Shown here: positions 1 through 10,205 of the stretch, piece by piece
How the letters are laid out: the number at the start of each line of letters is the position of its first letter
How positions within the stretch are numbered: the stretch's first letter is position 1
NCBI GenBank assembly: GCA_024640925.1
Contig: JAHEEB010000075.1
Location: 1 to 10,205, forward strand
Direction of reading: 5' to 3'
Length of the DNA: 10,205 nt
DNA from: Bacteroidota bacterium
GTDB taxonomy: Bacteria > Bacteroidota > Bacteroidia > Bacteroidales > UBA10428
Translations under genes and position numbers: made by a program
The notes under the pieces: generated by a model
The model's input: only the letters and a program-made list of their open reading frames with translations
Databases searched by the model: none
Told to the model about the DNA's origin: nothing

Positions 1-210
1 TAGTGTGGGTACTCCACGAATCTGGTACTGGTTTGCTAATTCGTTGTTTTGATCCACATCGATTTTTATAACCCTGATTTTTTGACCCATCTCAATAGCT
101 ACTTCCTTTAGAACAGGTGACTGAACTTTACATGGGGCACACCATTCGGCATAGAAATCAACTAAAACAGGCCGTGAGTCTTTTATTATAGTTTCAAAAT
201 TACCTTTCAT
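1..210 (-). CDS. Thioredoxin, cytosolic type (3' end cut by window edge)
   Basis: This is the first 70 codons of a thioredoxin, running off the left edge. The ATG at 208-210 opens with MKGNFETIIKDSRPVLVDFY. The dithiol active site WCAPC follows at residues 23-27 inside the usual VDFYAEWCAPCK context, and the cis-proline loop RGVPTL is at about residues 65-70. No signal peptide or membrane segment precedes the fold, so it should be a cytosolic disulfide reductase of the normal ~100-residue size. Its start lies 3 bp after the stop of the membrane-anchored thioredoxin upstream, so the two are almost certainly co-transcribed and perhaps translationally coupled. I see no Shine-Dalgarno sequence. 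The last ~30 residues lie outside the window. The assignment as thioredoxin is firm; the partner protein is unknown. Confidence 0.93.
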   Translation of the reverse strand, partial: MKGNFETIIKDSRPVLVDFYAEWCAPCKVQSPVLKEVAIEMGQKIRVIKIDVDQNNELANQYQIRGVPTL

Positions 211-213
211 AGT

Positions 214-630
214 TTATGCAGTTTGAATTTGATTTAAAAGAAAATCTTTTGATTTAATTCCTACAAACCGTTTTACCTCTGTTCCATTCTTTAATAAAAC
301 CATTGTTGGAATATTGCGAACATTATATTTTTTCGCCAGGGACTGATAATGCTCAATATTAACTTTACCAACACGAGCATTTCCCGACAGCTCCTCAGCA
401 ACCTCGTTTAAGATTGGGGCCATCATTCTGCATGGCGCGCACCAACTTGCCCAGAAATCGATTAGTACAACCTTGTTTTTTATTTGATGCTGAAAATTTG
501 AATCACTAAGCGTTAAAATCTTCTCATTGTCTGTTACCATTGGAATGTTTTTCATTCTTGCCTTGGCAGTAAATAAGATAATTCCAAAGGCTACTATGAC
601 CAGACCTACTATTACCATTGCTGTTTGCAT
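214..630 (-). CDS. Membrane-anchored thioredoxin
   Basis: A 138-residue protein with an N-terminal hydrophobic segment (about residues 4-21, rich in V, I, G and F) followed by a basic stretch (KARMK) and then a complete thioredoxin domain (about 35-138). The active site CAPC is at residues 64-67 in a WASWCAPCR context, and the cis-proline is P108 in RNIPT. The segment could be an uncleaved anchor. The basic residues on its C-terminal side suggest the domain may stay on the cytoplasmic face by the positive-inside rule, but periplasmic exposure cannot be excluded. An internal ATG at residue 26 would give a soluble form. I prefer the long start because the hydrophobic run is coherent and the 31-bp gap to the previous gene is normal. 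It sits between an atypical thioredoxin-like gene and a soluble thioredoxin in one transcription unit. Confidence 0.9.
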   Translation of the reverse strand: MQTAMVIVGLVIVAFGIILFTAKARMKNIPMVTDNEKILTLSDSNFQHQIKNKVVLIDFWASWCAPCRMMAPILNEVAEELSGNARVGKVNIEHYQSLAKKYNVRNIPTMVLLKNGTEVKRFVGIKSKDFLLNQIQTA

Positions 631-661
631 TTTTGTTTTTTTAATGATGTTAAATTTTTTA

Positions 662-1018
662 TCAGGCCTTTATGGGTGCTACAAATTCGGTTTCAAGAAT
701 TGCTGTAATTTGTTGTTTTGTCTGAATACTTGAGGTTGCTTTCACTACCATACCATTTTTATAATAAATGGTAAAAGGAATCCCCATAAATCCCCGAACT
801 TCGGGTAACTCCCTTATTACATGCGATTCGGGATTATCGAACTCCATATCGTAAAATTTAATATTCGTGTACTCATGTTGTAGCCCTTCTACATGATGGT
901 AAACAGGGATACACATAGGTCCCATACGGCCGCATATAACAACTACATTTTCATTCTCACTGATAATCCTTTCATGGTCAGCTGCTGTTTCAATATGTTT
1001 TAAATTTGTGTACAACAT
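662..1018 (-). CDS. Atypical thioredoxin-like protein with CGRMGPMC motif
   Basis: A 118-residue protein with the overall thioredoxin order: a VVVIC strand (25-29), an active-site loop, a helix, a KFYDMEFDNP strand (54-63), a GIPFTIYYKNG cis-proline region (P81) and a C-terminal helix. The canonical CxxC is absent. The loop reads CGRMGPMCIPVY, with cysteines at residues 29 and 36, six residues apart. Only C36 aligns with a classical CxxC position (the second cysteine); C29 falls at the end of the preceding strand. It may therefore work as a monothiol or through an unusual disulfide, and need not be a general disulfide reductase. It is the first gene of the three-gene thioredoxin cluster and is divergent from the Crp/Fnr regulator. 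I do not know a defined function for it. Thioredoxin-fold membership is well supported by the downstream half. Confidence 0.85.
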   Translation of the reverse strand: MLYTNLKHIETAADHERIISENENVVVICGRMGPMCIPVYHHVEGLQHEYTNIKFYDMEFDNPESHVIRELPEVRGFMGIPFTIYYKNGMVVKATSSIQTKQQITAILETEFVAPIKA

Positions 1019-1124: not shown

Positions 1125-1140
1125 TTTTATTGATTTGGAT

Positions 1141-1148
1141 TAACTTTG
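1141..1148 (+). promoter_or_regulatory. Candidate -7 box for the Crp/Fnr regulator gene
   Basis: TAACTTTG matches the Bacteroidota -7 consensus and is identical to the box facing the other way at 1045-1052. It ends 23 bp before the ATG at 1172 and lies downstream of an in-frame start at 1130, which favours 1172 as the true start. No clear -33 TTTG is seen at the expected spacing. Confidence 0.45.
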
Positions 1149-1171
1149 AGATTCTTCAATCGAAAAGATAC

Positions 1172-1867
1172 ATGAAAACTATTCTTGAAGCCGACAACGA
1201 TTTTATCTGTGATATTCAGGCTCCTTGCTTTCAGATGCTTTCTGAACAGGAAGTAGAGTTAGTAAGAGCAAGCAAAACACAGGTGCTTTTTCGTAAAGGC
1301 GATAACCTTACCAAACAGGGAGCTTTTGCTTCATATATACTTTTTGTAATTAACGGACTTGCCAAACAATATATCGAAGGAGACAATACGAAGAATTATA
1401 ATCTTCGGATTATCAAACCTGGCGAATTTGTTGGACTTTCAGCAGTCTTCACCAAAAACACATTTAACTACTCATCTATAGCGCTCACCGATTGTCAGGT
1501 TTTTCTTATAGAAAAGGATACGATTGCCAATGTTGTTAAGCAAAACGGAATGTTTGGTTTTACTATTATAAAGAGGTATTGCGAGCAAAATGCCAATCTT
1601 TTTGATACTTTACGAAATGTATTATACAAACAGATGAATGGCCGAATTGCAGACACTCTGCTTTATATCGATGGTTTAAAAACCGAAAATGCCGAAGTGT
1701 TTCAGCTGCTCTCAAGAAAAGATATTGCCGACTTTGCCGGAATCTCTACTGAAAGTGCCGTAAAGTTATTGAAAAGCTTTGAACGGGACGGATTGATTGA
1801 GCTTAATGAAAAAGACATATTAATTTTAAATTCTAATGCTTTGCTTGAGATAAGCAAAAGAGGATGA
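1172..1867 (+). CDS. Crp/Fnr-family transcriptional regulator
   Basis: A 231-residue regulator starting MKTILEADNDFICDIQAPCF. An N-terminal cyclic-nucleotide-binding-like beta-barrel spans about residues 30-125, with KGDNLTKQG and IKPGEFVGL resembling the fold's conserved turns. A dimerisation helix and then a C-terminal winged helix-turn-helix follow (about 177-211, LSRKDIADFAGISTESAVK then ERDGLIEL). I chose the ATG at 1172 over an in-frame start at 1130. The shorter form matches the usual ~220-235 length, and a -7 promoter box lies between the two. Two cysteines (C13 and C19) lie near the N-terminus where several Crp/Fnr members carry redox ligands, but the full four-cysteine cluster set of FNR is not present. 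It is divergent from the thioredoxin cluster and convergent with the sulfur-respiration block. Either could be its target; the effector is unknown. Confidence 0.9.
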   Translation: MKTILEADNDFICDIQAPCFQMLSEQEVELVRASKTQVLFRKGDNLTKQGAFASYILFVINGLAKQYIEGDNTKNYNLRIIKPGEFVGLSAVFTKNTFNYSSIALTDCQVFLIEKDTIANVVKQNGMFGFTIIKRYCEQNANLFDTLRNVLYKQMNGRIADTLLYIDGLKTENAEVFQLLSRKDIADFAGISTESAVKLLKSFERDGLIELNEKDILILNSNALLEISKRG

Positions 1868-1917: not shown

Positions 1918-2550
1918 TTAGCACCCTCCTGCAGGCTTCTTCTTTTTTGGTGTTGTCTTTATTACTGGTTTTGGAGAATTGGTTAATGGGGTGTTCGCGG
2001 GTTGTATCGTTGTTGTACTTCCACCTAAAGCACTACTTGCTGCCTTTCTGAAATCGTATTTTGCAAATTCTTCGTCAGAGCTGGTGGAGGCTGGTTCTGT
2101 TGGATTTAATATAACCTCGAACCAATAATTCAAGCCACCTTCCAGTACATAATTGTTCTTGTAGCCCAATTGTCGTGTTATCATCCAGGCTTCATTGGCA
2201 GTTATAGTGCCATTGGAATAAAATACGTTCATTTTTGTGTCCTGATCCAGTATTTCAACATATTGTTCGGCCAGCAAATCTGTAATGGGTATATTCATTG
2301 CTCCCTGCAAACTGAACTTTTCGTATTCATCCTGACTCCTTACGTCAATTAAAAGAAGGGTAGGATCGTTTTTCACAATCATATCAGCAACTGTTTCAGG
2401 TGAGATATATTGAGAACGTGTATTAGCTTCTGATAGCAGCTGTTCTGCTGTTAGTTTATAAGGTTTTGTCTTATTTTGAGGAACAGCGGCTATTATCAAT
2501 CCTAGAGGAATGATAAATATGGCAAGTATTATTCTCGGGTTCATACTCAT
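1918..2550 (-). CDS. Membrane-anchored rhodanese-like protein lacking the catalytic Cys, with C-terminal GGC
   Basis: A 210-residue protein. Residues 6-23 form a hydrophobic signal or anchor, suggesting export across the inner membrane. A rhodanese domain spans about 46-147: LLIDVRSQDEYEKFSLQGAMNIPI (66-89) is the conserved DVR...E...GA.NIP block, VFYSNGTIT (109-117) is the active-site loop and VLEGGLNYW (135-143) the closing motif. At the catalytic position there is serine (S112, codon TCC) instead of cysteine, so classical sulfurtransferase chemistry should be lost. The only cysteine in the protein is the last residue, C210, after a Pro/Thr-rich tail (about 183-200) and KKKK-PAGGC. It is last in the reductase-YeeE block, 39 bp after the preceding gene. 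A role in binding or relaying sulfane sulfur through the tail cysteine is inference; a scaffold role is equally possible. Confidence 0.88.
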   Translation of the reverse strand: MSMNPRIILAIFIIPLGLIIAAVPQNKTKPYKLTAEQLLSEANTRSQYISPETVADMIVKNDPTLLLIDVRSQDEYEKFSLQGAMNIPITDLLAEQYVEILDQDTKMNVFYSNGTITANEAWMITRQLGYKNNYVLEGGLNYWFEVILNPTEPASTSSDEEFAKYDFRKAASSALGGSTTTIQPANTPLTNSPKPVIKTTPKKKKPAGGC

Positions 2551-2589: not shown

Positions 2590-3180
2590 TCAATATTCCT
2601 CCCGGGGGAATTTCTTTTCTGCCCAGTCAGCAACCCAAAACATTGCTAAGGCAACAAGAATTAATAAAAGAGCAAAAACACCATCGCTCAATCCTAGCGA
2701 TTTACTTATCTTAGGCGAGCCCAAATCCTGAGCCCAGTATAGTTTCTCCCAAATTGGGTAGCCACCGCCAAATATTGCAACCCCAATAAATAATCCAACA
2801 ATAAACACCATACCATCGACTTTACCAATGGAAGCACCACAAAAGCTAGTGCCCGGGCAATAACCACCCATAATAAATCCTGCCCCCATAACTACTCCCC
2901 CCAGTATTGCAGAAGATAAGTAAGTGGGATTAATATATACCAAACCTAAATCGACCCATCCAAAAAGGCTAAAAAACAGAAGTCCTAACATAGCTGTAAT
3001 AGCACCTGTAAAAAAGACTTTTAATACAACCATGTCATATCCATAAAACACACCTGCTAATTTCCGGCTCGAAGAAAAACCGCTTTGTTCCAACACAAAA
3101 CCAAAACCAATGCCGATGATAAAAGCAAGAAATAAGTTGGTGTTTTCCGATATTATTTCATTTACTGCTAATGGTCCCAT
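2590..3180 (-). CDS. YeeE/YedE-family sulfur transporter, second half-size protein
   Basis: A 196-residue polytopic membrane protein of the YeeE/YedE family, whose E. coli member YeeE (TsuA) imports thiosulfate. Hydrophobic segments lie at about 15-33, 52-72, 87-108, 123-140 and 165-185. Family signatures are GFVLEQSGFSSSRKLAG (28-44), followed by the YGYDMVVLKVFFTGAIT stretch, and GGYCPGTSFCGAS (106-117), holding C108 and C114. The GxCPGTS motif carries the conserved cysteine thought to contact the sulfur substrate. It is about half the ~350-residue length of single-chain YeeE and lies 16 bp after a second half-size paralogue, so the two probably assemble as one transporter. No TusA-like partner (the usual YeeD role) is seen in the window. 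The direction of transport and the substrate here are not shown by sequence. Confidence 0.9.
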   Translation of the reverse strand: MGPLAVNEIISENTNLFLAFIIGIGFGFVLEQSGFSSSRKLAGVFYGYDMVVLKVFFTGAITAMLGLLFFSLFGWVDLGLVYINPTYLSSAILGGVVMGAGFIMGGYCPGTSFCGASIGKVDGMVFIVGLFIGVAIFGGGYPIWEKLYWAQDLGSPKISKSLGLSDGVFALLLILVALAMFWVADWAEKKFPREEY

Positions 3181-3196
3181 ACTATTTTGAATAAAG

Positions 3197-3712
3197 TTAA
3201 ATCCAATTTTTTCTAAAGAAATATGCTAAAGCGAAGGCTGTTCCGAAAATTGCCATCATGGTAATAAAACCACCCAAAGACAAAACAGCCATACCACTTA
3301 AAGCCGAACCACTGGTACAACCACGACCGAGTTGAGAGCCCCAACCAAATAATACTCCACCTATTAGTGCCATTATTAATCTCTTTCGCGATGTAATTTT
3401 TGGAGAATGTTCAACTTTAAATTTCAATCTGCCAGCTATAGCACCTGAAAGAAAACCACCAACTAGCACTCCCAGCATTTCAAACACCAGCCAGTTTTTC
3501 ATCGGATTACCAGTATGTTTTTCTGTATATTCTTTTATAAAACCAGAAGTCTGCGCAGAAGATGGTGATATTATAGTTGTTGCCGTAACAATACAGCTTT
3601 TGATGGCACCACTGGCACCTAAACCCCTGCCAGATATAAAATTTGCAGAAAGCAAGACCAGTCCGAGTAAAACACCACCCAAATATGGGTTTAAGTATTT
3701 TTTTGGTTTCAT
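3197..3712 (-). CDS. YeeE/YedE-family sulfur transporter, first half-size protein
   Basis: A 171-residue membrane protein of the same family as its downstream neighbour, with hydrophobic segments at about 10-28, 75-95, 112-128 and 142-165. Its signature is QLGRGCTSGSALSGMAVLS (127-145) with the conserved C132. The N-terminal GRGLGASGAIKSC stretch (28-40) also resembles the substrate-facing loop of this family and adds C40. The order of this gene followed by the GxCPGT-bearing gene gives a two-gene transporter instead of one fused chain. It begins 31 bp after the NrfD-type gene, so it belongs to the same run of minus-strand genes as the molybdoenzyme complex. This supports a sulfur compound as the metabolic theme. 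Thiosulfate or a persulfide-type species are plausible cargoes, by family only. Confidence 0.9.
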   Translation of the reverse strand: MKPKKYLNPYLGGVLLGLVLLSANFISGRGLGASGAIKSCIVTATTIISPSSAQTSGFIKEYTEKHTGNPMKNWLVFEMLGVLVGGFLSGAIAGRLKFKVEHSPKITSRKRLIMALIGGVLFGWGSQLGRGCTSGSALSGMAVLSLGGFITMMAIFGTAFALAYFFRKNWI

Positions 3713-3743: not shown

Positions 3744-4685
3744 TTAATATAGCCATCGGCTTACCTGTCCGGCATAAACAATTATAAAACGAAGCATGAT
3801 ACTGCCAAATAAAATCAACAAAGATGATATCAATACAGGTATATGAAATTTACGTAATTCTAAAAACTCCAATAAGGCAGGAATAACAAGCCCCAAAGCA
3901 ACTACAAATATCCAAAAAGCCATAGTGTAGGGACCACCAAGAAACAATTTGGCTGCATCTATTTGTACCTGTGTGCTTGCCATAAATCCCATAAACATGT
4001 GAATGATCAGAAAGACTTCTATTCCAATTAGTATCAGGTCAATTTGAGCAAATCGTTTTTTCTCAACAGCCGATTTAGACAAAAGCATTATTGTTGCTGC
4101 TCCTGCCGATAAACCTGAAGTGAGGAATAAGGGCCCCAGAATTGAAGTATTCCAGAGTGGACGGGCATTGAACGCTGATAAAAGTATGCCGGTATATATG
4201 CCCAGAATAACAGAAAAAATCAACATAATCCAGGCGATGGTTTTTTTATAACCTATTAGAAATACTTCTAATAATTTAATCCATGTATATTTCCAGTCCC
4301 AATTTGGAAAAAATTCCCTGATATAAAGGGCAGCCCAAATAAAAGAAACGGGAGTAATAACCATTAAAGTCCAGGCTCCCCAAGACATGGGCGATTGTAA
4401 TTTTATATTTGTATATAATTGCCAGAAATACAATTTATGCCGGAGATCTATGAAAAGGGCCAATAATCCTAAGATTAAAAGAAATGGAACAATTACAGGA
4501 GCTTTCTTAACCGCTGCTGGATACTCGTTTTCTTTTCCATTGATAAAAAACAAGGCAGTAAAAAATAAGATTCCGGCAGCAAGTCCTCCAAGAAAAAGGT
4601 AGAGTGGAATTTGCCAATGCCAGATATTTAATTGCGGGTCAACCAGGTGGTTCATTCGTCCGCTGACTATTAATTCTTCTTTCAT
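3744..4685 (-). CDS. nrfD: NrfD/PsrC-type quinol-interacting membrane subunit
   Basis: A 313-residue integral membrane protein with about eight hydrophobic segments (roughly 24-48, 64-82, 102-122, 148-169, 185-204, 216-236, 254-274 and 284-305), the standard NrfD/PsrC architecture. Family motifs visible are LGGLAAGI (32-39), SPMSWGAW (98-105), GIYTGILLSAFNARPLWNT (162-180) and RFIIVYAGQ (299-307). In PsrC-type complexes this subunit anchors the complex and passes electrons from menaquinol to the four-cluster ferredoxin subunit, which feeds the molybdenum site. It carries no haem-ligand pattern like the cytochrome b type PhsC. Its place directly after the ferredoxin gene, 15 bp apart, gives the classic catalytic-ferredoxin-NrfD gene order. 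Confidence 0.93.
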   Translation of the reverse strand: MKEELIVSGRMNHLVDPQLNIWHWQIPLYLFLGGLAAGILFFTALFFINGKENEYPAAVKKAPVIVPFLLILGLLALFIDLRHKLYFWQLYTNIKLQSPMSWGAWTLMVITPVSFIWAALYIREFFPNWDWKYTWIKLLEVFLIGYKKTIAWIMLIFSVILGIYTGILLSAFNARPLWNTSILGPLFLTSGLSAGAATIMLLSKSAVEKKRFAQIDLILIGIEVFLIIHMFMGFMASTQVQIDAAKLFLGGPYTMAFWIFVVALGLVIPALLEFLELRKFHIPVLISSLLILFGSIMLRFIIVYAGQVSRWLY

Positions 4686-4700
4686 TTGCAGTTCGAACCT

Positions 4701-5234
4701 TTAAATTATGAAATATAATTGTGGATTAGTACCTGCTTCGGGAATCAGTGTTTTGTATTTTCTTCTTTTCAAAATCATAGAAACCTTGCTGTTAGGGTCG
4801 TCTAAATCGCCAAAATAAATACATTTGGTAGGACATACTGAAGCACAAGCTGTATCCAGGCCGTTTTTTACACGATGAATACAAAAAGTACACTTATCAA
4901 CATATCCATCGGGATGCGGGTATCTTGCATCATATGGACACGAAGCAATACAGGCACCACAACCGATGCATTCCTTTGATTCAACCAGTACTATTCCTCC
5001 ATCGCTATAATGACTTGCTCCGGTTGGGCAACACCGCACACATGGAGAATTCTTGCAATGGTTGCAACGTTCAGAGCGGATTTCAATCTCAAGTTGGGGA
5101 TAGGTTCCTGCCATCACTTCAACAACCCATTCACGACAATAACCTATGGGAACATTGTTTTCTGTCTGGCAAGCAACAACACAATCGCTGCAACCCACAC
5201 ATTTTTTAGTGTCAACGGCCATTGCATATCTCAT
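4701..5234 (-). CDS. Four-cluster 4Fe-4S ferredoxin subunit (PsrB/PhsB/NrfC-like)
   Basis: A 177-residue electron-transfer subunit with sixteen cysteines arranged for four [4Fe-4S] clusters: C12/C15/C18/C22 (CVGCSDCVVAC), C57/C60/C65/C69, C89/C92/C95/C99 (CIGCGACIASC) and C115/C118/C130/C134. This is the DMSO-reductase-family beta-subunit pattern. It has no signal peptide, so it is expected to be exported in complex with the Tat-signal-bearing catalytic subunit. The gene start overlaps the catalytic gene's stop as TAATG (shared base at 5234). A strong AAGGAGG lies at 5242-5248 on the minus strand, 7 nt before the ATG, within the last codons of the upstream gene, so the start is well defined and translation is probably coupled. 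Its job is to link the NrfD subunit to the molybdenum subunit. Confidence 0.95.
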   Translation of the reverse strand: MRYAMAVDTKKCVGCSDCVVACQTENNVPIGYCREWVVEVMAGTYPQLEIEIRSERCNHCKNSPCVRCCPTGASHYSDGGIVLVESKECIGCGACIASCPYDARYPHPDGYVDKCTFCIHRVKNGLDTACASVCPTKCIYFGDLDDPNSKVSMILKRRKYKTLIPEAGTNPQLYFII

Positions 5235-7468
5235 TAGATTGCCTCCTTTTCCGTTTTTTTTGTAATAAAGGTTACAAAGTTTCCACGCATACCAGTGCCA
5301 CCCATAATCGGATCAATCAGAACTTTTGATATAAGCTGAGTGTCGCTTGCCCCCTTACCAAAACAACGTTTCATCTGTTTTTGGGCATGACCGAAACCAT
5401 GGACCATATAAACCGAATCCCATCGGATTCTCTCTGTAACCCGTATTTTTATAGGGAACTCGGATTCAATACCATCCTGGTTTTTAAGCCAGATATATTG
5501 ATCATTATTCAACCCCCATTCCTTAGCCACTTTTGGGTTAACCCATACAGTATTTTCATCCATAATATCGGTTAAATTTGGATTATTAGCAGTTCTACTG
5601 AAGGTATGCATTGGTGCGCGACCATAAATCAACCGATAGAAACCCTCTGGTGGCTCCTCGTGGGGTGTATATAGTGGTAGGGGATCAAATCCTGATTGTT
5701 CAAAATAAGTTGAATAAAGCTCTATTTTTCCCGATTCAGTTGGAAATTCGACATTTTCGCCTTCAGTTATATATATATCATCTGCTTCTCTTTCATAAGT
5801 TTTAACCCCAAGTTTTGACATCTCCTCAAGAGAGGTTCCTATTTTTTTAAGTTGCCAATCAAGAAGACTTTCTTGGTTTTCAAAAGGAAAATATGCTTGC
5901 AATCCCAATTTTTTAGATAATTCACGGGCTATCCAATATCCAGGTTTTGTGTTATACATTGGTTCCGATGCAGGCATACGCAAAGCTATGGCAGGTTTGC
6001 GATGGGGACTGACACGGATATTATCGAATCTTTCAAGATAGGTGCATTCAGGAAGAACAACATCAGCCCAGCCTGTAATCTCCATGGGCATTGTATCGAT
6101 AACAACAAGCAATTCAATATTTTGAATGGCTTTCAATGTATTCGCCTGATTTGGAATGGTATTTATAAGATTTGTTCCATTGACAATCCATCCTTTAATT
6201 GTAAAAACAGGATTATTTTCAGGAATAGATGCATCTATTAATACATTTGAAACCGTTAAACTGGCTAAACTATATTTACCAGGGAAAGCATCCTGCCAAG
6301 TTTTTGCAGGTTTAGGAAAGGAAGGAAGTGCGTATGAAGGTATGTTTGCTTTTGAAGGTCGGTAAAAACCGCCTCGGCGGCCCCAAGAACCCAACAGCGC
6401 ATTTAAAATAGCTATAGCTCGTATGCGTTGAGTATCATCGCCATACCACGTAACGTGCCTGCCCGGGTGTATAATGACTGCCGGAGATGCGTTGGCCATT
6501 TCCTTTGCTGTTTTCCGTATTAAACCAGGTTCAATGGTTGTTATTCCATAAGCCCATTCGGGAGTATTTTCCTTTACGTGCTCCTTAAGTTTATCAAAAC
6601 CAATACAATATTTCTCCACATAATCTTTATCGTAGTAATTATTATAGATTATCTCATGGATCCAGGTCAAAAGTAATGCTATATCAGTTGAAGGTTTAAT
6701 TGGCAACCAATATTTTGATTTACTTGCTGCTGTTGAAAAACGCGGATCAACGGTAATAATAGTTGCATCTTTATCAATGGCATCGGACATTTCTTGTATC
6801 TGTCCGTTATGCATGTTCTCGCCAATATGTGATCCAATTAAAACAAGACATTTTGTATCCCTGATATCTGTAATCTCAGGAGAGTATGCTTCTTCTCCAA
6901 AAGTAGCCATAAATGCTTCGTCTCTGGGGCCACGACATTGTGCATACGAAGGTTCTGCAATGTTAGCCGATCCGAAAGCTTTAAATAATGTTGAATAATA
7001 GCTGCTGCCAGAACCATGAGAGAAAAGGGCCATGCTTTCAGGACCATATTTAGAGCCGATTTCTATCATTTTGTTTGCTATATAAGTGAGTGCTTCTTCC
7101 CACGAAGCCTCCCGGAAAACTTGTTTACCTCTTTCCTGAATTCTGATAAGAGGTGTTTTCAGCCGATCTTCATCATAATACATTCCAATACCACCGGTAC
7201 CTCTTGGGCAAAACCGACCGTTACAATGCTGATCTTCTTCATTTCCAACAATCTTCCAAATTTTTCCTTCATCATTTTTATAAACCCATCCTGCACATTT
7301 CCAAAAACAAACTTCACAATAGGTGGGGATTCGCTTCAGCCCCTGAAGCAGATATTTTATTCCTTCCTGGGGTGAATATTTCTGAATTCCCTTTAAAATT
7401 CCACCTCCAATTGCCAGAGCACCTGCACCAAGCGCTGTGATCTTGATAAATTGTCTGCGGTTAGTCAT
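5234..7468 (-). CDS. Tat-exported molybdopterin oxidoreductase, polysulfide/thiosulfate reductase type catalytic subunit
   Basis: A 744-residue catalytic subunit of the DMSO-reductase family. It opens with a Tat signal, NRRQFIK (residues 3-9) then a hydrophobic AL/G-rich core (11-24), so it acts outside the cytoplasmic membrane. The [4Fe-4S] site is C51-x2-C54-x3-C58 ... C87 (YCEVCFWKC and CPRG). The molybdenum ligand is most likely C178 in SYAQCRGPRDEAF, and a cysteine ligand is what PsrA and PhsA use. Late motifs VYMVHGFGH and GMRGNFVTF near the C-terminus are typical of this clade, and 744 residues fits the ~750-760 family length. Downstream ferredoxin and NrfD genes complete the complex, and YeeE pairs and a rhodanese-like gene point to a sulfur substrate. 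Polysulfide, thiosulfate and tetrathionate cannot be separated by eye. Arsenate reductases share the Cys ligand and are the main alternative. Confidence 0.93.
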   Translation of the reverse strand: MTNRRQFIKITALGAGALAIGGGILKGIQKYSPQEGIKYLLQGLKRIPTYCEVCFWKCAGWVYKNDEGKIWKIVGNEEDQHCNGRFCPRGTGGIGMYYDEDRLKTPLIRIQERGKQVFREASWEEALTYIANKMIEIGSKYGPESMALFSHGSGSSYYSTLFKAFGSANIAEPSYAQCRGPRDEAFMATFGEEAYSPEITDIRDTKCLVLIGSHIGENMHNGQIQEMSDAIDKDATIITVDPRFSTAASKSKYWLPIKPSTDIALLLTWIHEIIYNNYYDKDYVEKYCIGFDKLKEHVKENTPEWAYGITTIEPGLIRKTAKEMANASPAVIIHPGRHVTWYGDDTQRIRAIAILNALLGSWGRRGGFYRPSKANIPSYALPSFPKPAKTWQDAFPGKYSLASLTVSNVLIDASIPENNPVFTIKGWIVNGTNLINTIPNQANTLKAIQNIELLVVIDTMPMEITGWADVVLPECTYLERFDNIRVSPHRKPAIALRMPASEPMYNTKPGYWIARELSKKLGLQAYFPFENQESLLDWQLKKIGTSLEEMSKLGVKTYEREADDIYITEGENVEFPTESGKIELYSTYFEQSGFDPLPLYTPHEEPPEGFYRLIYGRAPMHTFSRTANNPNLTDIMDENTVWVNPKVAKEWGLNNDQYIWLKNQDGIESEFPIKIRVTERIRWDSVYMVHGFGHAQKQMKRCFGKGASDTQLISKVLIDPIMGGTGMRGNFVTFITKKTEKEAI

Positions 7469-7656: not shown

Positions 7657-7680
7657 TTTTTGGAACCACTTCCTCAAAAA
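7657..7680 (-). terminator. Hairpin overlapping the mobA stop codon, possible terminator or attenuator
   Basis: TTTTT-GGAA and TTCC-(TC)-AAAAA flank a 4-nt loop CCAC, giving a nine-pair hairpin with a two-base bulge across the mobA stop. On the transcribed strand it is not followed by a clean U-run. Termination before the molybdoenzyme promoter region is therefore only a possibility, and read-through from the cofactor genes may occur. Confidence 0.25.
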
Positions 7681-8258
7681 TATTTAACCAAATGATTGTA
7701 TTCCTCTGGTGTGTTTACATTTAAAAACATGGCTGACGTATAAACTGTAAGATCTTCTGTTATTTCTATTGGCAGATAGGAAGTACTTTTAATAAATGTC
7801 ATCAATTTGTAATCATGCTTGTTAATAGAAATTTCCATGGCAGGTAATACAGATTTCTTATAGATTGCACATAAAGGTTCGAAGTATTTATTATGGGTAG
7901 GAACAATTATATCATGGTTATTGGCAAATGTCAGTAAATATTCAAACAACATAGTTTGTATTAATGGCATATCGCATGATATAACCAGATTAACCTCGGT
8001 GGGTGATTGTTTTATACATGAGTAAATGCCTGTTATTGGTGCCTGAACATCCATTTCGTCGGGCCAAACTTCACAACCGGTAAAATCATAATTATTGAAG
8101 TTCGAACTGATAACTACTTTATCACACAAGGGTTTAATTGTGTCGATAGCATATTGTATGAGTGGTTTGCCATTCAGAATCATGAGCGATTTATCCTGGC
8201 CCATTCTGCTACTTCTGCCACCTGAAAGGACTATTCCGGTTATTAACTTTTTATCCAT
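7674..8258 (-). CDS. mobA: Molybdenum cofactor guanylyltransferase MobA
   Basis: A 194-residue nucleotidyltransferase that joins GMP from GTP to Mo-molybdopterin, producing MGD, the precursor of the bis-MGD cofactor needed by DMSO-reductase-family enzymes such as the one encoded next door. The N-terminal GTP-binding signature LSGGRSSRMGQDK (11-23) is the MobA pattern. The metal-binding aspartate lies in SCDMPL (94-99), followed by EPLCAIY (127-133) and a C-terminal FLNVNTPEE (178-186), also characteristic. The length matches MobA. The start overlaps the stop of the MOSC-Mog gene as TAATG (shared base 8258), so the two are translationally coupled. It is the last gene of the cofactor block; 205 bp separate it from the molybdoenzyme gene on the same strand. 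Confidence 0.93.
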   Translation of the reverse strand: MDKKLITGIVLSGGRSSRMGQDKSLMILNGKPLIQYAIDTIKPLCDKVVISSNFNNYDFTGCEVWPDEMDVQAPITGIYSCIKQSPTEVNLVISCDMPLIQTMLFEYLLTFANNHDIIVPTHNKYFEPLCAIYKKSVLPAMEISINKHDYKLMTFIKSTSYLPIEITEDLTVYTSAMFLNVNTPEEYNHLVKYF

Positions 8259-9196
8259 TAATGAGAATCAATGTTATAAAGCATATGAATAGTATGTTCT
8301 ATGGTTTTGAATATTTCGTCGGTATATTCCTTTACTGCTTTCGGATTACCTGGCAGGACATAAATTAAAGTTTTTCCTGCCACACCTGCAATACTTCGGC
8401 TTATCAAGGCATTTGGTGTTTGCATCCCATATTTCACCCTGATTAATTCCATGATTCCTGGTATTTCCTTGTCCAATAAGGGTTTTATTGCATCAGGAGT
8501 ATAATCATGCGGACCTATTCCGGTACCTCCGGTTGTAAAAATGATATCGGTCGTCTTGTTTTGAATTAGTTTTTTTATGCAAGCCTTAATTTTTTCGACA
8601 TTATCGGGTAATATCGTATTTTGAATTTTAATACCTCTATGAATAGAGGCAAAAAAAACCTCAGATAATTCTCTCAGAAGTGGACCGCTTTTGTCTTCAT
8701 AAACACCTTCACTGGCTCTGTCGCTCAAGGTAACAATCTGAATATTCAAAAGTCTGGGTTGATATTCCAGAATATCGCCAGGAGCCAAAACTCCACCCTG
8801 AATTACCCGACAAAATATTCCTTCCCTGGGCATTACACAATCGCCGGCTTCTTTAAATATTTCACATCCGGAACCATGACATTTTTTGCCAATCTGGGTA
8901 ATCTCCAGTATAATATTTCCACAAACCAATCGATCAAGAGGTTTCATTGTATATAAAGGGAAGCCCTCAGTAGTAATATTTTCAGCAAATTCCCCAAAAT
9001 TGAGTTTGTGTTTAATGGATGTATTCATTTTATCATAACTTTCCTTGCCAAGCAAACTAACCTGCCGATGCCAGTTTCCAGCATGTGCGTCACCTTCGAC
9101 TCCGAGATTATCAAGAGAAATTGTGTTAACAGGCACTTTTATTGTTCCTTTTTTCTCCGAAATATTAACGGAAAGTATTTTTATCTGTTGCATCAT
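8258..9196 (-). CDS. MOSC domain-MoaB/Mog fusion protein (molybdenum cofactor biosynthesis)
   Basis: A two-domain protein of 312 residues. The N-terminal MOSC domain (about 1-145) shows GVEGDAHAGNWHRQVSLL (32-49), GEFAENITTEG (68-78), and KCHGSGC and CVMPREGIFCRV (105-131) with several cysteines. MOSC domains bind pterin-type molybdenum cofactor or carry sulfur. The C-terminal domain (about 151-312) is MoaB/Mog-like: TLSDRASEGVYEDKSG (156-171), FTTGGTGIGPHDYTPDA (220-236) and LPGNPKAV (281-288). These domains adenylylate molybdopterin before molybdate insertion. An in-frame GTG at 9199 lengthens it by one residue; I prefer the ATG at 9196. The gene starts 14 bp after moaC ends and overlaps mobA by one base. 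No separate moeA is seen here. Whether the MOSC half acts in cofactor storage or sulfuration is not shown. Confidence 0.9.
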   Translation of the reverse strand: MMQQIKILSVNISEKKGTIKVPVNTISLDNLGVEGDAHAGNWHRQVSLLGKESYDKMNTSIKHKLNFGEFAENITTEGFPLYTMKPLDRLVCGNIILEITQIGKKCHGSGCEIFKEAGDCVMPREGIFCRVIQGGVLAPGDILEYQPRLLNIQIVTLSDRASEGVYEDKSGPLLRELSEVFFASIHRGIKIQNTILPDNVEKIKACIKKLIQNKTTDIIFTTGGTGIGPHDYTPDAIKPLLDKEIPGIMELIRVKYGMQTPNALISRSIAGVAGKTLIYVLPGNPKAVKEYTDEIFKTIEHTIHMLYNIDSH

Positions 9197-9210
9197 CACT
9201 TATTAACTTT

Positions 9211-9657
9211 TCATTCTTTGGTTTTCAGCAGTAATTTTATATCATTTATTGTCATTGTTTTGTCTACAGCCTTACACATATCGTAGATGGTTAACAGAGC
9301 AATGCTCACACCTGTCAATGCTTCCATTTCCACCCCGGTTTTTCCGGTACAACAAACCTCACATTCAACAAGTACTCCTTCTTTCTGAATGATAGTATTA
9401 ACAAGTACTTTTTCAAGAATAAGGGTATGACACAATGGAATTAACAACGCTGTTTGCTTGACAGCCTGGATTCCTGCTATTTCGGCAACAGTGAGTACAT
9501 CTCCTTTTCTTAATGTGTTTTTATTGATGAGTTTTATTGTATCGCCTGATAGTGAAATAAAACCCGAAGCCTTTGCGTAACGATGTTGGTCTGTTTTATC
9601 TCCTACATCTACCATGCGGGCATTTCCCTGAGAATCAGTATGTGTTAATTTTTTCAT
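9211..9657 (-). CDS. moaC: Cyclic pyranopterin monophosphate synthase MoaC
   Basis: A 148-residue enzyme that turns the MoaA product (3',8-cyclo-7,8-dihydro-GTP) into cyclic pyranopterin monophosphate, the second half of the first step of molybdenum cofactor synthesis. Visible signatures are LTHTDSQGNARMVDVGDK (4-21), IPLCHTL (73-79) and TGVEMEALTGVSIALLTIYD (109-128), with the catalytic lysine region CKAVDK just after. The usual IPLCHPL has T instead of P, a minor change. An in-frame TTG at 9675 would overlap moaA and add six residues. I prefer the ATG at 9657: it gives the canonical N-terminus, and a GGAGG sits upstream within the end of moaA. It lies 7 bp after the moaA stop, so the two are co-transcribed. 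Confidence 0.95.
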   Translation of the reverse strand: MKKLTHTDSQGNARMVDVGDKTDQHRYAKASGFISLSGDTIKLINKNTLRKGDVLTVAEIAGIQAVKQTALLIPLCHTLILEKVLVNTIIQKEGVLVECEVCCTGKTGVEMEALTGVSIALLTIYDMCKAVDKTMTINDIKLLLKTKE

Positions 9658-9664
9658 TTTAGTC

Positions 9665-10205
9665 TTATCCTCCAATGTTATAAAAAGCTCCCGTTCTGTT
9701 GAAGCACCCTTTCAATGGTTTATTATTCAGCGCATTAATTAGAGCCCTTTCAGCTCCAAGTTCACGCACACTGTATTCATCCTCACTGAATAGACAGGGT
9801 TTAATCATTCCATTGGCTGTGAGACGCAAACGGTTACATTTTGTGCAAATCCCTCCGTTTCCTCCTTCAACCTCCGAATATTCGCCAGTCACAAGATTCA
9901 TTTGGCGTATAAACCTTACCTCAAGGTTATTGTCAAGACAGAATCTTTTTACTTCGTAGGCATCTTCTTCATCCGACGATTTAAAAACCACACAGTTGAC
10001 TTTGACAGGCTTTAGCCCAAATAAAATAGCAGACTTTATGCCTTCAAAAACCCTGTTTATGTTGCCACCCCTTGTTATTTCTTTAAATTTCTGAGCATTT
10101 ATGGTATCCAGACTTATATTAACTCTGTTTAAACCCGCTAATGCAAGGGATTCAGCGAAATACCCCAATAATATTCCATTCGTAGTTAATGATAAATCCT
10201 TTATA
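9665..10205 (-). CDS. moaA: GTP 3',8-cyclase MoaA (N-terminal part outside window)
   Basis: The C-terminal ~180 residues of MoaA, a radical-SAM enzyme that starts molybdenum cofactor synthesis by cyclising GTP. The reading frame continues to the right edge as KDLSLTTNGILLGYFA, so the true start and the N-terminal CxxxCxxC radical-SAM cluster are beyond the window. An apparent start near 10168 is only an internal TTG. The segment RVNISLDT is the conserved strand of the barrel. The C-terminal cluster that binds GTP is present as ICTKCNRLRLTANG followed by KPCLF (CxxC-x13-C). The protein ends FYNIGG, matching the conserved di-glycine tail needed for activity. Full MoaA is about 320-330 residues, so roughly half is visible. 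It is the first visible gene of the cofactor block. Confidence 0.95.
   Translation of the reverse strand, partial: IKDLSLTTNGILLGYFAESLALAGLNRVNISLDTINAQKFKEITRGGNINRVFEGIKSAILFGLKPVKVNCVVFKSSDEEDAYEVKRFCLDNNLEVRFIRQMNLVTGEYSEVEGGNGGICTKCNRLRLTANGMIKPCLFSEDEYSVRELGAERALINALNNKPLKGCFNRTGAFYNIGG

Follow-up and report, generated by a model that had tools for sequence, protein, structure and literature searches.

The protein encoded at positions 1918..2550 of the window (the whole 10,205-nucleotide stretch of a Bacteroidota contig analysed here) belongs to a widespread bacterial family of rhodanese-like proteins whose carboxyl terminus probably acts as a swinging arm handing sulfur to a YeeE transporter. 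Family members have a rhodanese domain that lacks the catalytic cysteine and a flexible tail with a conserved cysteine at or next to its end. Tightly linked and often covalently fused to one half of the transporter (half B), they are candidate sulfur presenters genetically locked to it, and they are found with three alternative enzyme partners. How sulfur enters the cytoplasm is described as poorly understood by the SoxT study PMC11582611.

The window protein and its gene neighbourhood

The coordinates of the protein, of its parts and of the co-oriented genes are compiled in Table 1. The ORF codes for 210 residues, or 208 if translation starts at the second ATG, the form given by database entry P0001. 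From the amino to the carboxyl terminus the protein is composed of a hydrophobic segment, which is a helix in the AF2 model (residues 3–20 of the 208-residue form), the rhodanese domain, a further helix and a 33-residue tail with the end KKKKPAGGC. The model predicts a confident rhodanese fold carrying a mostly disordered tail (pLDDT <50 at residues 176–191 and 199–208 of the 208-residue form). The Foldseek matches listed for it are mostly rhodaneses, and PDB chain 1qxn (Sud of Wolinella) is among the sequence relatives of the protein (E 8.1e-7). The first-pass annotation had described a well-kept rhodanese fold, a single cysteine (C210) in 210 residues and a flexible Pro/Thr tail tipped by KKKK-PAGGC; the domain match, the model confidence, the cysteine codon and the variable linker listed in Table 1 bear it out on these points.

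Table 1. Features of the window protein and of the adjoining transporter and reductase genes
Feature	Positions	Strand	Evidence
Terminal-Cys rhodanese-like protein	1918..2550	(-)	Pfam Rhodanese E 7e-15; 2256 homologues at E<=1e-3
N-terminal hydrophobic segment, ~residues 5–22; probable membrane anchor / signal anchor	2485..2538	(-)	Direct reading; helix in AF2 model
Rhodanese domain, residues 51–144	2119..2400	(-)	PF00581 E 7e-15; AF2 pLDDT about 90–95
Former active-site loop Y-S-N-G-T, residues 111–115; Ser112 at catalytic-Cys position	2206..2220	(-)	Sequence reading; alignments
Flexible tail, residues 178–210: variable Pro/Thr/Ser-rich linker, then KKKK	1921..2019	(-)	AF2 mostly pLDDT <50; linker conservation 0.38
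Terminal Gly-Gly-Cys	1921..1929	(-)	Cys210, codon 1921–1923, sole Cys of the 210-residue protein
YeeE half B, PmpB/YedE2-like, N-terminal half of PF04143; Cys108 in GGYCPGTS	2590..3180	(-)	Pfam Sulf_transp E 7.3e-11, profile 8–157
YeeE half A, PmpA/YedE1-like, C-terminal half of PF04143; Cys132	3197..3712	(-)	Pfam E 7.5e-21, profile 175–309; 6leo E 2.4e-5
NrfD/PsrC-type membrane subunit	3744..4685	(-)	PF03916 E 1.6e-44
4Fe-4S ferredoxin-type subunit, NrfC/PhsB-like	4701..5234	(-)	Profile matches
PhsA/PsrA-like molybdopterin oxidoreductase, RRQFIK (Tat-like) N-terminus	5234..7468	(-)	Best NCBIfam PhsA 469 bits, below cut-off 694

Upstream of the phsA-like gene (7674–10204, minus strand) lie molybdenum cofactor genes coding for MobA-like, MOSC and MogA-type fusion and MoaC proteins and for the end of a MoaA-type radical SAM protein. 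On the other side of the operon, a divergent Crp/FNR-type regulator gene (1130–1867, plus strand) separates it from the thioredoxin genes. Positions 1–1018 (minus strand) code for a thioredoxin with an open end, a thioredoxin with an N-terminal hydrophobic stretch (214–630) and a 118-residue ORF (662–1018) that reads CGRMGPMC and has no Pfam match. These thioredoxin-like ORFs may serve to reduce the arm. A search for TusA, positive in 11 of 14 control genomes, gave no match in the window's own genome (82% complete).

Conservation of the carboxyl-terminal cysteine

Cysteine is the last residue in 119 of the 120 proteins listed from the 2256 homologues (108 end in AGGC and 11 in SGGC), in all 120 proteins listed from the 155 matches of a second search and in 9/9 from a third. 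P0081, whose genomic context is unknown, is the only one without terminal cysteine among the 120 class A proteins listed (operon classes are described below); its AGGF end could stem from a single-base change or a sequencing error. Of 93 stretches from named genomes that code for a relative, 80 were retained. All 80 combine a loop with S-N or S-H and a GGC end, and 79 have no further cysteine in domain and tail, in a set biased by search patterns that included loop and tail stretches. Their titles name Bacteroidota and, in addition, six Neomarinimicrobiota bins. A rhodanese match at E<=1e-8 is present in 46 of 296 genomes sampled across the phylum of the window, and distant fetched members with 25–40% identity still end in cysteine (KKKKREGC, RVIGGC, even DLRFQC).

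The terminal cysteine is found in the family more than by chance: 37 of the 480 mechanically called ORFs of at least 150 residues in 40 related gene maps end in cysteine, 35 of which are family members, and the 442 other ORFs account for two. Within the window's own genome (assembly 82% complete) the only KKxxGGC-stop motif is that of the window gene. In the hand-chosen alignment A1 (77 rows) mean conservation is 0.75 for the domain, 0.38 for the linker and 0.93 for the last three residues (GGC tip). The cysteine is present in 74 rows, the remaining three being references cut short of the carboxyl-terminal end. The median net charge over 15 residues of the tail falls from +5 in class A to +3 in class B and +1 in class C, and some tails are hardly Lys-rich (LVRMGC, DLRFQC). 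The constant of the tail is thus the cysteine and not its charge.

A short conserved carboxyl-terminal motif, placed after a Lys-rich stretch in many members, might also mark a site for modification or attachment (of a lipid, a peptide or another protein) whose cysteine carries no sulfur. The residues around the cysteine vary, however, unlike those of a processing signal (GGC, EGC, MGC, FQC, GGCG, GLCS), and a membrane link is already provided by the N-terminal hydrophobic segment or by fusion to a membrane protein, which makes a modification site very unlikely.

Loss of the catalytic cysteine

Residues 109–117 of the window protein read VFYSNGTIT, with Ser112 in the place of the catalytic cysteine. 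At this position the 53 aligned family members, pre-filtered by requiring a cysteine within the last three residues, have Ser (20), Ala (17), Gly (13), Cys (2) or Asp (1), and the residue that follows is Glu, Asn or Asp in 48 of them. The loop cysteine that defines catalytic rhodaneses or sulfurtransferases (PF00581) and Sud-type polysulfide carriers is absent in 51 of the 53 and present in 2 of 383 rows overall. As read from these alignments, the family trait is the loss of the catalytic cysteine with a loop turned polar or acidic. The spread of Ser, Ala and Gly over the members identifies Ser as the form of the window's own clade. The replacement of cysteine by serine, emphasised in the first-pass annotation, is accordingly correct for the window and its clade (80/80), but family-wide Ser is only one substitute; it was rejected as the key feature since Ala and Gly serve as well. 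Note that L103 and L111, sisters in the tree, have a cysteine in the loop (LYCED/LYCEN) and keep the terminal one too.

Linkage and fusion to the YeeE transporter

The two genes that precede the rhodanese gene code for two short PF04143 halves, each with a conserved cysteine, which together have the make-up of a two-part YeeE transporter. Half A features the motif GRGCTSG, and in an alignment with S. thermophila TsuA its Cys132 falls on a GC; for half B alone, no PDB sequence relative was found. The split is the same as that of PmpA and PmpB, given in a passage of PMC11582611 as the C-terminal and N-terminal parts of PF04143, respectively. Part of PMC10812762 describes YedE1E2 (PmpAB) of C. 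pinatubonensis and S. meliloti as a one-way importer of zero-valent sulfur that needs both conserved cysteines, and the survey reported there found few YedE1 or YedE2 proteins outside Proteobacteria. By analogy with these relatives, the YeeE pair of the window would import zero-valent sulfur.

The 296 phylum genomes were also searched with the neighbouring half B, a query that makes no use of the tail, and the sequence fused to or following each match was then read. Of 57 matches in 51 genomes, 53 were strong (E<=1.5e-33) and 4 weak. The strong ones represent 52 distinct loci, after merging two near-identical genomes and filling L116, L125 and L129 from stretches of the rhodanese search. An intact terminal-Cys rhodanese is encoded at 51 of these 52 loci, as the next gene in 26 and as an in-frame fusion in 25. 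Its cysteine is last in 46 and second-last in five (L142, L146, L147, L197 and L191, with ends GGCT, GGCS, GGCG, GGCA and GLCS, respectively); the GGCG end of one member resembles that of the SoxY arm. At the remaining locus, L189, the gene is broken and its downstream piece still ends KKKKREGC. None of the four weak YeeE relatives from the half B search of the 296 genomes has a terminal-Cys rhodanese fused to it or following it. Among the 49 rhodanese matches, G271:C2 (L152) and G250:C1 (L154) were set aside as they have no half B within the fetched 15 kb; the sequence of L152 suggests a rhodanese combined with a metallo-hydrolase-like part.

Drift in a single lineage, named in the first-pass annotation as the case against its reading, is rejected by these results. 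Loss of the loop cysteine and presence of the terminal one co-occur across the family: both are seen in 80/80 close relatives kept, and 51/52 transporter-anchored loci have the terminal cysteine, with the last one broken. No intact gene next to the transporter was seen to lack the terminal cysteine or to have the catalytic one in its stead.

Fusion to half B strengthens the assignment of the transporter as partner. In 92 natural YeeE-B/rhodanese fusions (of 120 listed) the residues R393, G397 and C398 are invariant, as is Cys107, the counterpart of the half B cysteine. One such fusion was modelled with AF2; the tail is not positioned at a pore, and since the membrane part is poorly predicted (pLDDT about 50) the model was rejected as a means of locating it. 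The fusions, the presence of cysteines in both YeeE halves and the three thioredoxin-like ORFs near the window gene would also suit a redox plug or gate, in which the tail would occupy the vestibule of YeeE and be joined by a mixed disulfide to one of the channel cysteines, shutting the channel until thioredoxin reduces it, with no sulfur carried. Such a gate is considered unlikely: the swap of the sulfur enzyme between operon classes described below fits delivery of a cargo better, and no ORF in the 40 maps was labelled as a match to the two thioredoxin-like query ORFs of the window.

Operon classes and fusion history

Three kinds of operon, assigned from the content of the fetched stretch, share the constant core half A – half B – terminal-Cys rhodanese. 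Class A (the window and 21 mapped loci) codes for the PhsA-like protein, ferredoxin, NrfD, half A, half B and rhodanese; the loci from named genomes show this order as far as their contigs reach. Class B (25 of 52 loci) codes for an octaheme-type cytochrome, cytochrome b561 (24/25), half A and a half B-rhodanese fusion (24/25). The cytochrome matches PF11783 and has as best PDB match 1sp3 (E 4.9e-130), the Shewanella octaheme tetrathionate reductase. Ignavibacteria-type organism names are found for 6 of the 120 matches listed (of 155) in the second search. In class C (5 of 52 loci) a two-domain rhodanese precedes half A, half B and a rhodanese ending in MGC or FQC; the two-domain protein of L143, the one that was read, has a catalytic-type Cys loop, and one organism name is Balneolaceae. 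The place of this ~300-residue protein upstream of half A is taken in L124 by a 548-residue match that looks like more than two rhodanese domains.

The first-pass annotation had placed the protein next to a sulfur reductase and a sulfur transporter. The transporter pair is indeed constant, but a molybdenum reductase as fixed partner is too narrow a view and was rejected, given the octaheme cytochrome and the multi-domain rhodanese of classes B and C. Judged from gene content, the enzyme partner is interchangeable and of a sulfur-handling type. The same observations bear on the view that the carrier serves a periplasmic enzyme rather than the transporter, feeding polysulfide sulfur to a Phs/Psr-type reductase in the manner of Sud. 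The PhsA-like, ferredoxin and NrfD subunits of class A, encoded in the window and 21 further maps, and the presence of 1qxn among the sequence relatives speak in its favour. It is nevertheless improbable, as the enzyme differs in the 25 class B and five class C loci while the YeeE pair stays, and fusions join the rhodanese to half B and not to the enzyme.

In a maximum-likelihood tree of 73 rows, the 67 family rows are separated (98/91) from the six other rhodaneses included. Fusion is seen in a class B clade, within which L153 is unfused, in L090 of class A and in L191, a long branch of unsure placement; the fused rows need 4 changes on the tree, 3 of them forced by starred branches. Their position in separate parts of the tree points by parsimony to at least two separate fusions, the alternative being a gain plus losses. 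In L153 (G005), the class B locus with half B and rhodanese unfused, the half B match crosses one in-frame TAG. L114 (G134), and also L087, have tandem rhodanese-like paralogues after the YeeE halves, both ending PEGGC with this cysteine as the only one; downstream of the L114 tandem are a gene for a Crp-like protein and two rhodanese-like ORFs of greater length (325 and 332 residues).

Proposed mechanism

A transporter-tethered periplasmic swinging arm that presents sulfane sulfur to the two-part YeeE importer is regarded as a moderately likely function of the family. The rhodanese domain, devoid of its own sulfur-binding cysteine, would be the body that docks on the transporter, and the disordered tail of ~30 residues with its single Gly-Gly-Cys (or Glu-Gly-Cys, Met-Gly-Cys) end would be the working arm. 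Sulfane sulfur generated or released by the periplasmic operon partner (Phs-like molybdoenzyme, octaheme cytochrome or multi-domain rhodanese) would be loaded on the terminal cysteine as persulfide or thiosulfonate, carried by the swinging arm to the mouth of the channel that YeeE halves A and B make up, and passed into the cell by the conserved YeeE cysteines. The swinging-arm carrier that the first-pass annotation had suggested as one possibility is supported by the family data, with the mechanism itself predicted. The periplasmic side is suggested by the positively charged N-termini that precede the single anchor (charges read by eye) and by the Tat-like start of PhsA. The step from this anatomy to sulfur carriage is made by analogy. 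In lucinid symbionts, SoxY swinging-arm genes are reported to lie next to otr and next to YeeE/D (PMC11237559), and for the C. abyssi metallopterin-dependent ergothioneine synthase (MES) a passage of PMC9516567 gives Cys1135 of 1136 as essential and proposes a persulfide relay.

The arm might also pass electrons or resolve disulfides, freeing sulfide at the importer in a thiol-disulfide relay without being a sulfur donor. A precedent is one SoxT locus with a DsbA-like partner that has a Cys pair at its carboxy-terminal end (sections of PMC11582611), but the family members have a single cysteine, with no resolving second one in domain and tail (79/80), and a relay of this type is highly improbable. 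For the sulfur-presenting arm, a bolder and tentative version, doubtful at present, is that a bound sulfur atom and not a dissolved ion enters the cell, by thiol exchange between the arm persulfide and a channel cysteine with one atom per handover; this would be a new import class. Passage of sulfur from the SoxY cysteine to the channel cysteines is called conceivable, yet doubted for distance, in a part of PMC11582611, which also doubts direct Cys-to-Cys transfer within the channel, whose cysteines are ~7 A apart. If one-atom handover holds, a single delivery module would serve three kinds of sulfur enzyme that are unrelated to one another.

Relationship to known sulfur carriers

Swinging-arm sulfur carriers are already known; what is new here is the scaffold and its coupling to a transporter. 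A literature search of open-licence papers, a scope that makes it weak evidence of absence, found analogues only and no description of a terminal-Cys rhodanese family. By sequence the family is neither a catalytic rhodanese, its loop cysteine being absent, nor SoxY nor TsuB, and its layout is SoxY-like.

SoxY of SoxYZ (PF13501) is a periplasmic carrier with its working cysteine on a carboxyl-terminal swinging arm, of motif GGCGG; GGC would have the same role here, as predicted. The family likewise has a Gly-flanked cysteine on a flexible carboxyl-terminal arm, with Gly on one side only and the cysteine mostly last. It differs by an unrelated fold, with no match to the SoxY domain in 77 family members at E<=0.01, and by being membrane-tethered or transporter-fused. 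SoxY is over the cut-off in 34 of the 296 genomes and overlaps with the terminal-Cys rhodanese only in G005. Mutual exclusion of the two is only suggestive, since 32 of the 34 SoxY genomes are from one family (f18) and phylogeny may explain the pattern. If the arm acts as proposed, it would be a SoxY-like carrier for Bacteroidota, Ignavibacteria and Neomarinimicrobiota.

DsrC is alike in having a mobile carboxyl-terminal arm, with a conserved second-last cysteine that carries sulfur, and unlike in fold, location and partner: it is cytoplasmic and works with sulfite reductase. The C. abyssi MES shares the cysteine at the extreme carboxyl terminus, which is essential there, but has a cysteine desulfurase domain and an intramolecular relay, and no transporter. 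YeeE/TsuA and SoxT with TsuB (YeeD), and PmpAB (YedE1E2), are of the same transporter family, with a dedicated thiol partner that adjoins or is fused. TsuB is described in parts of PMC11073785 and PMC11582611 as a cytoplasmic TusA-family protein that decomposes thiosulfate. The partner here is instead of rhodanese fold and probably located in the periplasm, acting, as proposed, ahead of transport; the TusA domain with CPxP (PF01206) has no match in the window protein or the 77 members.

The fold is that of single-domain rhodaneses such as PspE and Sud, and 77/77 members match PF00581. Those proteins carry sulfur on the loop cysteine that the family lacks; Sud of Wolinella is a periplasmic polysulfide carrier, which binds polysulfide sulfur and feeds a Psr-type reductase. 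Single-domain rhodaneses and Sud are not known to have a terminal-Cys tail. Entries of the family are named sulfurtransferase in some databases, though the catalytic cysteine is gone.
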